Virus record (IMG/VR): IMGVR_UViG_3300042372_000146
Coordinates: 1 to 29,507 of that record
DNA length: 29,507 nucleotides
Strand: one strand, 5' to 3'
Source: a virus
Shown: positions 20,434-25,130 of the stretch, one piece after another
Numbering within the stretch: position 1 is the stretch's first letter
How the letters are laid out: every line of letters begins with the position of its first letter
Notes under the pieces: model-generated
What the model was told of the DNA's origin: nothing
Databases searched by the model: none
The model's input: only the letters and a program-made list of their open reading frames with translations
Made by a program: the position numbers and the translations under genes

Positions 20434-21369
20434 TTATTGTTTCCGCTTAGACGATGCAATTTTAGGCGTGGCAATATGTGGCGGATTCTTTGCCTGCTTG
20501 CGAATCTCTTCGCGCAGGATCAAAGGGACCGCATCACGCCAACAAATCTTGTGATGAATCCTTCTATTAGTGGTATTCAGCATTGAAACTTTGACTGCGG
20601 ATGGGCAAAGCATGACCGTATAGAAAGACTTTTGATACGTGCCCGACTCAAGATAGGCGTCGCTCATGCCACCGCTGCTTTGCTGTGTCGAAGCTTGATT
20701 CAACGAGAAGAACGGGATCGTGCAAAACAATTCTCCAATGTTGCCAAGCGCCACATACGTGTTCACATCTTCGTTCAGCCTTCCTCGAAACGTGAACGGG
20801 CGTTCAGAGTCGCAGAAGAATGAATTCATGCACTTGCGCCTCATCTTTGGCTCTGCGGCAAATGGTTTGTTGTTTTTGCCTCCGATGAAATCTCCGCCTT
20901 GCGCCATGGCAACCGATGTGCAATTAGTCGCTTTCAAGAATTCAACGAACGCATGAAACACTTTGTTTAAGTATTTGGTGCCAAGTAAGTGATCTGGGTA
21001 TTGGCCAGAGCCTGTTATTCTGAATTGAAAGTTAGTGTAGTCGTCGTCAAATTGTACAAACCATCTATACCCTAGTTCTTTAGCAATACTGAACGATGCG
21101 TTTCGCGCATGCGCCGTGGTCCTACGTTTGTCAAAGTTGTCCATTTCATCTATCTTGTCTGCCCACGCCTTCTTGTCAAATATCTTTACTGCGTCACCGT
21201 AAAGCTTTTGATATTCAGCGATAGTATCGTCTTCGTTATCGACGATGTAAAAGATAGGCCCTGTGTACCCTGCATTGCGCACAGTAGTTGTGGTTTTGAT
21301 ATTGTTTGGCCTGCCGTGCGTGATAATAAAAACGGCAAAGTTGTCTGGGTGCGAATCACTCTTGCTCAT
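20434..21369 (-). CDS. TET-associated-type glycosyltransferase (TAGT-like), putative DNA base glycosylation, 311 aa
   Basis: The protein starts with a GT-A-like nucleotide-sugar fold (FAVFIITHGRPNN, 11-23; GPIFYIVDNEDD, 37-48) and has the metal-binding triad FDDDY (107-111). The conserved block AMAQGGDFIGG (154-164), MRRKCMNSFFCDS, FRGRLNEDVNTYVALGN (194-210) and SGTYQKSFYTVM matches my recollection of the TAGT family. Members were described in phages beside TET/JBP dioxygenases and ParB proteins and are thought to glycosylate hydroxymethylated bases. Here no TET gene is in view, so the hydroxyl-bearing base must come from elsewhere in the genome or from another route. The upstream gene is a ParB-domain protein, overlapping by 14 bases. 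The start has GAGGAAG upstream. Confidence 0.8.
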   Translation of the reverse strand: MSKSDSHPDNFAVFIITHGRPNNIKTTTTVRNAGYTGPIFYIVDNEDDTIAEYQKLYGDAVKIFDKKAWADKIDEMDNFDKRRTTAHARNASFSIAKELGYRWFVQFDDDYTNFQFRITGSGQYPDHLLGTKYLNKVFHAFVEFLKATNCTSVAMAQGGDFIGGKNNKPFAAEPKMRRKCMNSFFCDSERPFTFRGRLNEDVNTYVALGNIGELFCTIPFFSLNQASTQQSSGGMSDAYLESGTYQKSFYTVMLCPSAVKVSMLNTTNRRIHHKICWRDAVPLILREEIRKQAKNPPHIATPKIASSKRKQ

Positions 21370-22132
21370 GTTCTTCCTCGAATATCTGTGAAAGAGAATT
21401 GCTGATTTGAACGTAACCGTTTTCGATTGCCTTATTCATATCAATGATGACAAGTGCTGATCGTTCCATTAGGTCTTGGATATTAGCGGGCGAATGCGCA
21501 TAGTAATCCGCGCACAATTCATAGTTGAACACAATGTGGCGAGTGGCTGCAAGCCTTAATAGATTTTTGCAAGCGTCGTCGATACCTTCCGCAGCATTAA
21601 TTTGAGCAATAAGCTGGTCGTACTTTTGCAATCCAACGATGGCTTTCTCGGAAGGCTTCTCATTCTTTGGTTCGTATACTGGCGCTTCGATTGTGCGCGT
21701 ATACATTGGTTCCTCTTCGTCGCCATCAAGATTGTAATCCTGAGACAGCCCAGACAACATAGCAGCAAGCGCCTTGTTGTCGGTCTGCACGCTCTCCAAA
21801 ATTGCGGAAAGTTTTTCAGAATCTGCGTCGGCCATGCAAGAAAGTGGGTCGTACGTTGCAAGTATCTTGTCGGCTTCTGTTTCGTTAACGTCAAGAATCA
21901 ACACTGGGATGCTTGCGTTACCAACTGTTTCGGTTCGCAGGTGACCGTCAATCAGCATAAGCCCATTTGCGGTTTCACGCGCAAGAACTGCGCCAGCGAA
22001 TCCAATCTCTGATAACAAACCCTGCAAAGCTTCCTGTTGCTCTTTAGGATGCTTGCGCCAATTCTTTGGGTTAGGCAACAATTCATTAGCCGGAACGCGG
22101 CGAAACTCTTTGATGCGGTCTCTGATCTTCAT
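21356..22132 (-). CDS. ParB/sulfiredoxin-domain protein linked to DNA modification, 258 aa
   Basis: Residues about 13-95 are a ParB-N/sulfiredoxin-like domain: VPANELLPNPKNWRKHPKEQ (13-32), SEIGFAGAVLARE, then MLIDGHLRTET (59-69), where GHLRTE is the characteristic GxxR-type motif (GHLR box). In chromosomal ParB this fold binds and hydrolyses CTP; in phages it often accompanies DNA methyltransferases or glycosylating enzymes. The C-terminal half (about 130-258) is helical, rich in Glu and Ala, and has no obvious homologue. The start overlaps the RusA-like stop as ATGA, and the glycosyltransferase starts 14 bases before its end. No helix-turn-helix for parS binding is visible, so chromosome segregation is unlikely. 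Confidence 0.82.
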   Translation of the reverse strand: MKIRDRIKEFRRVPANELLPNPKNWRKHPKEQQEALQGLLSEIGFAGAVLARETANGLMLIDGHLRTETVGNASIPVLILDVNETEADKILATYDPLSCMADADSEKLSAILESVQTDNKALAAMLSGLSQDYNLDGDEEEPMYTRTIEAPVYEPKNEKPSEKAIVGLQKYDQLIAQINAAEGIDDACKNLLRLAATRHIVFNYELCADYYAHSPANIQDLMERSALVIIDMNKAIENGYVQISNSLSQIFEEEHEQE

Positions 22133-22569
22133 GCGATTGTTTCTTTCAGTGCCTGTATGACAACGCGCATGGACGACGGGCCACGACGCGGGATGAACTC
22201 CTGAGTGATCTTACGAATTACTTTGGTGTTGTCGTTTGCGATAATCTTTAGCTTCTGAAGCATATCAAGTGTAGGTTTCAGCGTGTTATCTAGGTCGCGC
22301 GAGTAAGACCATGAGTCGCCGCCGTAGATAGTTAAGTCTATAGACAATAGGCCTTCTACACGCCCTACGGTTGGCGCTACAAGGAATGCACATTCGGTTA
22401 GCCAAGTCTTGTAAGATTTGGAAGAAACAATCCTCGGCCTTCGAGTAGCGTATCCCGGTCGAGGCTTAGGGGCAATAAGCGTTGTCATTTGATTAGCAGA
22501 TGTTGGGACAGATAACTCAAGAACGACTTGATCAACTAACGCTCTGGTCTTGATCGTGAATCGTTTCAT
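22129..22569 (-). CDS. rusA: RusA-type Holliday junction resolvase, 146 aa
   Basis: RusA-type enzymes are metal-dependent endonucleases that cut branched DNA. The signature RDLDNTLKPTLDMLQKLKII (91-110) followed by NDNTKV supplies the acidic residues Asp92, Asp94, Asp102 and Asp113 plus Lys98, matching the catalytic pattern. The earlier part begins MKRFTIKTRALVDQ and has LLSIDLTIYGGDS before the active-site segment. The ATG at 22569 lies 38 bases inside the upstream GNAT gene and has GAGGACT about six bases upstream. Near the replication genes, it likely resolves replication or recombination intermediates before packaging. Confidence 0.9.
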   Translation of the reverse strand: MKRFTIKTRALVDQVVLELSVPTSANQMTTLIAPKPRPGYATRRPRIVSSKSYKTWLTECAFLVAPTVGRVEGLLSIDLTIYGGDSWSYSRDLDNTLKPTLDMLQKLKIIANDNTKVIRKITQEFIPRRGPSSMRVVIQALKETIA

Positions 22570-23011
22570 AGCCAGTCCTCAGGAATTCGATAGCGTCGCC
22601 TGAATGATAGTAATCTTTTACAATTCCAACCGCTATCCATCCGTGTGCTTTCATCCAGTATTGCTCCCTGACTGATCTTTCTGGCACGTAGCATTGGAAT
22701 ATAGACGTGACTTCGTGATCGATTAGTGCGTTGTGCAAGTACGTTCCAAGCCGATCTTGAAAGCGTCCTTCTTCTGTGACGCATAACCGTTCAAGCCTGT
22801 AGATGTTTCCGCGTCGCTTAGTCACGAAACCATATGCAAGTAAAACATTCTTGACGCTGAACCAAACGTTTAAACAAAGTCTTGAATTAAGCATCTTGTC
22901 AATCATTTGACCGTTCAACGCGTCCGGTCCAAATTCGGCAATCTCATGTTCTAAGATTGCCGCTTTCAGGGCCGCTCGGGTCATTTGATTGACAGAGTTT
23001 TTATCTGTCAC
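22532..23011 (-). CDS. GNAT-family acetyltransferase, 159 aa
   Basis: The C-terminal half has GNAT features: IYRLERLCVTEEGRFQDRLG (the CoA-binding turn with R-x-x-G-like RFQDRLGTYL), and REQYWMKAHGWIAVGIVKDY then YHSGDAIEFLR, the pattern of the final GNAT strands (x-YxxHGF-x-xVG-x-x-x-x-YY-x-GxDA). The N-terminal 45 residues are helical. Two starts are possible: GTG at 23011, preceded by GAGGG, and TTG at 23026; the GTG overlaps the upstream stop by 11 bases and is preferred. Substrate is unknown. In this cluster it might act on a modified base or on a protein; Mom-type DNA modification also uses this fold, but no Mom-specific signature is evident. Confidence 0.75.
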   Translation of the reverse strand: MTDKNSVNQMTRAALKAAILEHEIAEFGPDALNGQMIDKMLNSRLCLNVWFSVKNVLLAYGFVTKRRGNIYRLERLCVTEEGRFQDRLGTYLHNALIDHEVTSIFQCYVPERSVREQYWMKAHGWIAVGIVKDYYHSGDAIEFLRTGYETIHDQDQSVS

Positions 23012-25130
23012 CGGAATCGCCCTCAAGTTGAAGCGTCCAATACTTGCGGTTGTTGATCATTGACTCGGTGATAGTGTCTGGATCAGATCGCATGGCTCGA
23101 TACAATCTGTCCATAGATATACCAATCGCTTCTGCCGCGTCAATGATGGGTTTCACTTGCGACACGCCGTCCTGACCCTGTAAGTGAGCAAGCAGCCATG
23201 CCTTGTCCGAGTCAATAAACGATGGGCGTCCGGGGCGGCGTTGCTGCTGATTGCGTCCGGGCTCGTCCATAGCTGGCGCACTACCGGGCGGCGTTTCATC
23301 GTATTCGTTACCATGGTCGCTCATGGTTACACCGAGTGCTACAGGCTTTTTAGCGTTAGTCTTATCGACCCAGAGTTTGCGCCGATTAGGTTCTCCGTCA
23401 GGATCTGGGCAATCCAGTTTGATCACCTGCCTGCAAGCTCCCACAATGCGACGACCTAATGCTTCGCCACCCTTGTTTAGATGCGTAACAAGGATGATTG
23501 ATGTGTTGCAGCGTGTGGCAATCTCAGCAAGAGGCTTAAAGAACAATTTTGCCTCTTCGGGCCGCGTTGTGTTGCGGTCCGTTGCGCTGCCGCATGTGTC
23601 TACAAACACAAACGCAGGCTGAATGCGCTTGATGCGTCGCTCAAGATTAGCTAAGTCTTCCACTGTGTCTAAGTTAGTCCCCGCATAAGGATTTGATCGA
23701 CGCGAGTTAAGCACAATCGCTTCGGGAAGGAAGTCAAATTCCTTTGGAAGTGCGCCTAATTCTGACCACTGGCTGTCCGCAGCGATCCAGATTGCCCTGC
23801 TTCCTACGGGCAGGTTTGCAGGTGTTCCATCTGGCCATGGCAACCCAAGGAACACGCGCCGCAACAGGTCCGCACACAATCTGGTTTTGCCAACTCCCGG
23901 TTCGCTGGCTAGTGCGGTGATCGTGCCCTTCTGGATCCACCCCGGCCACGTCCATTGAACCTCTGCTTGCAGGGCTAGTAAGTCTGCAGCCGTAGCGTCG
24001 GGGTCTTCGTCATCTGTATCTGGTACATCTGTGGCAATTCTTTCCGGCCCTGTGTACAGCTCGACTGTTCTAGACCGTGGCGTTGATGTTGGCTGCGCAG
24101 GCTTGGCTGCAACAAGCAGATGGCCAAAGTTGGTTCCAATCTTACGAGCGTCTCGGATCTTGTGCAGCAATTCCCGCTCTGACCATTCAGGGGCGCAGCG
24201 TGAATTCCATTCAGCCATTGCGACAAGCGCGTCTGATTCCGAAAGGCCGAATCCTTCGACCGCAATCATTGCCGCATGAAATGCCCTGCTGTGACCGCTT
24301 TGGCCAGATATGGCTGGGGGTACTTTGGCAAGGTAAGCTTTGCACCTGCCGACTGTATCGGTTTGGCTTGAACCGCGCTGCCGATCAAGGCTAGCCAGTG
24401 CGGCGTCCTGATGCTGCCACGCGGCCAATATTGTATTCAATGCCGCATTGTTGCCAAAAGTAGACGATGAGTCCTTTTGTTTTGCGGCAGTGGTAACCCA
24501 TGCTAACCTATGTGGCCGCTCGGCGGTTGCGCCCCCTTTGCGCGCGTGCGTGCCGTACAACTTCCAGATGCGGCTTGCATTATAGGTTCGCGTGTCAACT
24601 TTGGCTCCTGCTGTCGAGCAGCGTTGATCAAGCCCTGATAGCAAAGATTTGATCTTATCGCGCGTAGGATCGTCGTTCGGCAAAAGTACTGGGTAACACA
24701 AATGCCAACCGTTTCCCGAACTTGCAACAATAGGATCGGCCCAACCAGATGCGGTCATTGTGGCCTGCACAGATGATAACACTCGCCACGCTTCCGCACG
24801 TTCGGTATCGGTAGCGGATACGTTAGCTGGGCGCGTTGGGTCAACGTCAATGAGTATCCAATGGCGTTTAAGCACATCAGCGTCTGTAGCGCATGTTCGC
24901 GCGGGTCCAATTCGATTGGTAACAGGCATCGCAATTGGCTGAGGCAAAAAGTACACGCCCCTGCTTGTTTGCATATCGGCGGCTGCGGCGGCCATCACAT
25001 GAATGTGTTCATAATCAAATACACCGGAAAAACTTCCACCGTCCGTGAATGCTCGCAGTTCGGTGATAGTGCCCGGTTCAATAAACAATTTCAAATACGA
25101 TTCGATTGTTGCGGCCCTGTCCTGTGTCAT
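23001..25130 (-). CDS. Primase-helicase fusion (AEP-like primase plus RepA/RecA-fold helicase), 709 aa
   Basis: Residues about 1-215 form an archaeo-eukaryotic-type primase domain: WILIDVDP (91-98, Asp95 and Asp97), SSGNGWH (137-143) and VDTRTYNASRIWKLYGTHAR (178-197). Residues about 260-335 resemble a PriCT-like helical linker. The C-terminal motor (about 395-600) has Walker A SEPGVGKT (409-416), Walker B FVFVDTCGS (507-515) and a sensor-like IILVTHLNKGG (545-555), typical of RecA-fold helicases of the RepA type. Residues about 640-700 carry a possible winged helix (GISMDRLYRAM). It unwinds and primes phage DNA. The start overlaps the sigma factor stop as ATGA. Length and intact motifs support a functional replisome core. 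Confidence 0.9.
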   Translation of the reverse strand: MTQDRAATIESYLKLFIEPGTITELRAFTDGGSFSGVFDYEHIHVMAAAAADMQTSRGVYFLPQPIAMPVTNRIGPARTCATDADVLKRHWILIDVDPTRPANVSATDTERAEAWRVLSSVQATMTASGWADPIVASSGNGWHLCYPVLLPNDDPTRDKIKSLLSGLDQRCSTAGAKVDTRTYNASRIWKLYGTHARKGGATAERPHRLAWVTTAAKQKDSSSTFGNNAALNTILAAWQHQDAALASLDRQRGSSQTDTVGRCKAYLAKVPPAISGQSGHSRAFHAAMIAVEGFGLSESDALVAMAEWNSRCAPEWSERELLHKIRDARKIGTNFGHLLVAAKPAQPTSTPRSRTVELYTGPERIATDVPDTDDEDPDATAADLLALQAEVQWTWPGWIQKGTITALASEPGVGKTRLCADLLRRVFLGLPWPDGTPANLPVGSRAIWIAADSQWSELGALPKEFDFLPEAIVLNSRRSNPYAGTNLDTVEDLANLERRIKRIQPAFVFVDTCGSATDRNTTRPEEAKLFFKPLAEIATRCNTSIILVTHLNKGGEALGRRIVGACRQVIKLDCPDPDGEPNRRKLWVDKTNAKKPVALGVTMSDHGNEYDETPPGSAPAMDEPGRNQQQRRPGRPSFIDSDKAWLLAHLQGQDGVSQVKPIIDAAEAIGISMDRLYRAMRSDPDTITESMINNRKYWTLQLEGDSGDR

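Follow-up and report, generated by a model that had tools for sequence, protein, structure and literature searches.

The TAGTs of phages T6 and T2 are reported to act on DNA, and the TAGTs of reported activity use hydroxymethyl or glucosyl-hydroxymethyl cytosine (PMC13216743). The α-glucosyltransferase of T4, which has a GT-B fold and acts on 5-hydroxymethylcytosine, binds the clamp gp45 through a contact of its own (PMC13216743). A 2026 NAR survey counted a TAGT without α- or β-glucosyltransferase in 288 of 753 phage genomes, and left the role of these enzymes open (PMC13216743). In Coopervirus, ParB (gp1) and TET (gp2) are encoded by overlapping genes upstream of the terminase gene (L173, 1-1759; the PHROG name for this TET family is 'queuine tRNA-ribosyltransferase'), and in Stenotrophomonas phages a related ParB domain is fused to DNA methyltransferases. 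The genes that surround TAGT and TET, with ParB perhaps among them, are reportedly discussed by Iyer et al. (2013) and Burke et al. (2021). No paper on a phage ParB-glycosyltransferase pairing, on a clamp-type partner or on YnaK was found in a literature search that lay mostly outside the subscription journals. We analyzed a viral stretch of 29,507 nucleotides (IMGVR_UViG_3300042372_000146, positions 1 to 29,507; hereafter the window), in which a TAGT gene is preceded by the gene of a ParB-domain protein, here called the partner.

The preliminary description of this DNA had joined four overlapping genes, for a GNAT acetyltransferase, a resolvase, a ParB-domain protein and a TAGT, into one hypermodification cluster. 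All four ORFs were present on the minus strand at 20434-23026 (Table 1), and the partner gene end overlapped the TAGT gene start by 14 bp. The resolvase call was borne out by the RusA profile, and the TAGT call by two family profiles and a fold model. The GNAT call was not confirmed, as this ORF matched no acetyltransferase family in Pfam at E ≤ 10 and no PDB sequence, and had no relative in the phage collection. Its product is an orphan protein that resembles GNAT by eye only. A single hypermodification cluster including acetylation would agree with the overlap of the genes in the window, but it is highly improbable: besides the missing acetyltransferase profile match, relatives of the GNAT-like gene occurred in this phage only among 94 loci, and those of RusA in few of them. 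Such poor conservation alongside the TAGT-partner pair ruled out both genes as module members. The earlier DNA modification reading thus applies best to the TAGT and the partner, with no part for acetyltransferase or resolvase. The real conserved unit is a two-gene operon of partner and TAGT.

Table 1. Genes, domains and conserved motifs of the locus (positions in the window).
Feature	Position	Strand	Basis
Putative GNAT-like ORF	22532-23026	minus	ORF list
RusA	22129-22569	minus	PF05866 E 1.3e-5, above cut-off
Partner protein, 258 aa (putative adaptor)	21356-22132	minus	phrog_620 and adjacency to TAGT
TAGT-family GT-A glycosyltransferase, 311 aa	20434-21369	minus	PF20691, phrog_842, GT-A model
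ParB/Srx-fold N-terminal domain of partner, aa 1-138	21719..22132	minus	model vs ParB/Noc CTPase domains, Z about 14
Partner C-terminal domain (conserved), aa 140-245	21398..21715	minus	precedes TAGT with or without ParB domain
DDD motif D108-D110, putative nucleotide-sugar/metal site	21040..21048	minus	invariant or almost invariant across 47 relatives
E200-D201 of (N)ED motif, candidate catalytic base	20767..20772	minus	conserved in relatives; role by comparison with GT-A enzymes
H272-H273, C-terminal HH motif	20551..20556	minus	conserved in relatives

Judged by its sequence, the window enzyme is a member of the TAGT family PF20691, which it matched at E 3.8e-33 (115.6 bits, curated cut-off 27.5); the match to phrog_842 had an E value of about 3.4e-68. 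The AlphaFold model showed a GT-A fold (pLDDT 84, pTM 0.83), and TarP, SunS and ppGalNAcT are among the solved structures closest to it (Foldseek/VIA). Conserved residues comprised R20, D47, D74 and R89 in addition to those of the three motifs in Table 1, a pattern to be expected if the enzyme is active. The HH motif was missing in most of the extra TAGT copies found in tandem at some loci. The β-glucosyl-HMC-α-glucosyltransferase of T2/T6 shares PF20691, and its DDD and ED motifs align with those of the window enzyme. However, the T2 family member adjoins a dCMP hydroxymethylase gene, which takes the place of the partner, whereas in the window clade the partner is present and the searches gave no hydroxymethylase.

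The ParB call of the preliminary description held for the N-terminal half of the partner; the C-terminal half, a distinct conserved domain, had been missed. The window partner did not match Pfam ParB, and Pfam ParB_N was matched in its relatives. With the PHROG ParB profile the window partner gave an E value of 8e-18, and it also matched phrog_498, the family of ParB-DNA methyltransferase fusions. The two share a related ParB N-terminal domain, but in phrog_498 the methyltransferase lies within the same family model, while in the window clade the glycosyltransferase is a separate protein. The Coopervirus gp1-gp2 pair resembles the locus in that a related ParB N-domain gene overlaps the gene of a base-modifying enzyme upstream of the terminase gene; it differs in that TET replaces TAGT and gp1 lacks the C-terminal partner domain. 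ParB modules therefore accompany three enzyme types, TAGT, methyltransferase and TET, two of which modify DNA bases. A ParB partition protein would be recognized by a helix-turn-helix parS-binding domain and a ParA partner; the residues after the ParB domain of the window protein form a different conserved domain, and no ParA was seen among the neighbour genes inspected. The ParB domain could also bind nucleotide or protein instead of DNA. The C-terminal domain, of about 105 aa, is strongly conserved, with P151, A196, R198, A208, Y211, E223 and D231 invariant in 39 partners, and is the conserved element of the partner. Its model was helical, with pLDDT mostly 76-98 at aa 151-230 and below 50 at aa 134-147. 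The PDB matches of this domain (Z 2-3.2) were too weak for use.

A partner gene lay directly upstream in 84 of 93 TAGT genes, a set that includes a few copies from one phage. Four of the nine unpaired TAGTs stand where their contigs end (L028, L031, L047, L086), one reflects a start-codon artefact (L004), one is separated by a single inserted gene (L033), one belongs to a deletion fusion in Lactobacillus phage Ld25A, and two are distant TAGTs of Kuja. Annotated phages with the pair have Escherichia, Haloarcula, Lactobacillus, Nocardia, Porphyromonas and Vibrio as hosts. Scanning bacterial and archaeal genomes added 38 loci, spread over many phyla, and partner-TAGT pairing was seen in nearly all of these.

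About half of the viral relatives have no ParB domain before the C-terminal domain, only a short N-terminal peptide, and in T4-like Vibrio phages the partner is the C-terminal domain alone. The leader of these short partners is typically MKQINLFG, which agrees with the β-sliding-clamp-binding consensus QLxLF (PMC4549789). The motif Q..[LMI]F was found directly before the C-terminal domain in 39 of 42 distinct short partners, which are mutually related and hence non-independent samples, compared with 18 of 1850 other ORFs and 0 of 26 ParB-fused partners. When the set was reduced at 60% identity, six leaders were left and four of them had the motif, against a mean of 0.10 and a maximum of 3 in 2000 shuffles. 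The window partner has a ParB domain in place of this peptide, and a clear clamp motif is missing in L143, L089 and the L054 group. A DnaN-like clamp gene follows directly after the TAGT gene both in L127, whose short partner carries KQSELF, and in L143, which has a short partner as well. The ParB or clamp label changed at least three times on the TAGT tree (FastTree, which flagged long branches). Because the ParB and clamp-like modules are alternatives on one protein, the partner looks like an adaptor taking the glycosyltransferase to DNA. Clamp-associated DNA glycosylation would also be the point of likeness to the T4 α-glucosyltransferase (PMC13216743), which differs in the fold, clamp contact and acceptor given above.

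The two partner types also differed in gene context. Among loci with enough sequence, ParB-type pairs lay beside a terminase gene in 42 of 45 and clamp-type pairs in 1 of 11, divergent terminases possibly escaping detection (Fisher 8e-8, a p-value inflated by shared descent). Apart from terminase, no third gene family common to most loci was found. Some loci also encode a sugar-nucleotide epimerase, a UDP-sugar dehydrogenase, a radical SAM enzyme or a SAM methyltransferase, or have the TAGT gene in two to three copies; these additions suggest varied or multi-sugar products. In L066 (1154-2781), the epimerase and UDP-sugar dehydrogenase genes lie between TAGT and terminase. In L152 (5255-8629), one partner gene is followed by three tandem TAGT genes and then a radical SAM gene; its second and third TAGT copies have lost several conserved motifs. 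A radical SAM gene comes directly after the TAGT gene in L126 (2695-3630, weak SPASM match) and in L091, L134, L137 and L139.

Genes that would make a hydroxylated base were sought in the window and beyond. Among the window proteins scanned, none came up as a TET, hydroxymethylase or methyltransferase, in line with the preliminary description, which had offered as one option that the base-hydroxylating step lies elsewhere. A 40-kb version of the phage (IMGVR_UViG_3300044530_000503; 39,987 bp, 99.5-99.98% identical to the window) has ends that overlap by 259 bp, and the genome is therefore probably complete. Profile searches of it gave no TET, thymidylate-synthase-family or C5-methyltransferase match. 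No TET was found in 30 records, the 40-kb genome and 29 of the clade. The other two families were searched in 30 records made up of the 40-kb genome, 27 clade members and the two T4-like phages Va1 and Kuja; none of these gave a C5-methyltransferase match, and thymidylate-synthase-family (PF00303) matches were confined to single strong copies in Va1 and Kuja, which are taken to be thymidylate synthase. Overall, neither TET nor a thymidylate-synthase-type hydroxymethylase nor a C5-methyltransferase could be detected in the 40-kb genome and 27 relatives, and no candidate for a step elsewhere emerged. The records searched include some fragments, and c5, jlb1, HHTV-2 and NTR1 are annotated complete. 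As positive controls, T2 gp42 was detected with PF00303 (E 1e-16) and the Coopervirus TET with PF12851 (E about 4e-8, under the curated cut-off). An association of TAGT with TET or another hydroxymethylpyrimidine source was thus not found in the 40-kb genome and its 27 relatives; family membership stands, since the TET link behind the TAGT name is a genomic association and no feature of the sequence family. For HHTV-2, no modification or restriction data were found in the literature passages covered.

Taken together, we consider it probable (about 0.68) that partner and TAGT make up a DNA glycosyltransferase system of phages. With its modelled GT-A fold and motifs, the TAGT would take the sugar that it transfers from a nucleotide sugar. 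The near-invariable gene pairing suggests that the C-terminal partner domain binds the TAGT, while motif and context suggest that the N-terminal module carries the complex to phage DNA. The ParB-like domain would be the delivery module in the window phage and in terminase-linked operons, and the β-clamp-binding peptide would serve in operons away from terminase. Glycosylation of phage DNA would then take place at the replication fork or shortly ahead of packaging, and would probably serve as protection against host nucleases. Gene context likewise favors DNA as the putative acceptor.

An action of the TAGT on a protein or other non-DNA acceptor, such as the partner itself, terminase or a host protein, appears improbable. 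It would agree with the protein glycosyltransferases SunS and ppGalNAcT among the closest solved folds, where glycan glycosyltransferases are also neighbours, and with the failure to find a source of a base hydroxyl. However, the clamp motif and the ParB domain, alternatives on one partner, point to DNA, and family members of T-even phages act on DNA. Points against DNA glycosylation are these structural neighbours, the loci without a clear clamp motif, the other possible ligands of the ParB domain, the loss of the pair in some dairy phages, and the 28 records without a detectable base-hydroxylating gene, when TAGTs of reported activity act on an already modified base. As no hydroxylated-pyrimidine pathway was found, the acceptor on DNA would be a base that an unrecognised enzyme has made reactive or, by direct transfer, an ordinary base. 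The first course, a sub-case of DNA glycosylation in which a phage or host enzyme hydroxylates the base, is possible, if rather unlikely. The acceptors of the TAGTs with reported activity (PMC13216743), the many genes of these genomes without family assignment and the radical SAM enzymes after TAGT in a few loci speak for it; the searches of the 28 records, in which the controls were detected, speak against it, as do the lack of a third common gene family besides terminase and the small genome of Lactobacillus phage c5, with about 50 genes, where the 25 Pfam families listed of 31 include no oxygenase. The second course, a widespread direct glycosylation of ordinary non-hydroxylated bases (for example, N-glycosylation of an exocyclic amine) via interchangeable ParB or clamp-binding modules, is speculative and also unlikely; if true, it would represent a DNA modification of a new kind. 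At least one clade of solitary TAGTs gains a constant partner with two alternative putative delivery modules, and its smaller genomes without a detected hydroxylated-base pathway pose a chemical puzzle.

The pair has decayed or been deleted in some dairy phages, and so is dispensable there. In Lactobacillus phage Ld25A (L092, 90-515), a deletion joins the ParB N-terminus to the TAGT C-terminus, and the TAGTs of LL-Ku and Ld17 appear partial. The E. coli homologue of the partner is full-length YnaK, and a TAGT gene follows it. DNA of the pair was matched in 1559 of 5426 complete E. coli genomes, and at least 80% of the query was present in 885 of the 5426, about one in six. Because E. coli prophages carry the pair, a laboratory strain can be used to look for its substrate. 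In K-12, on the other hand, only an N-terminal ynaK remnant is left in the Rac prophage (L154, 1378-1641), so that ynaK itself is the truncated copy. RefSeq labels ynaK an incomplete pseudogene in E. coli NZ_CP033884.1 (L155, 3959-4216), a label that probably derives from the K-12 reference; the DNA of this strain is identical to phage DNA carrying the full-length partner ORF.
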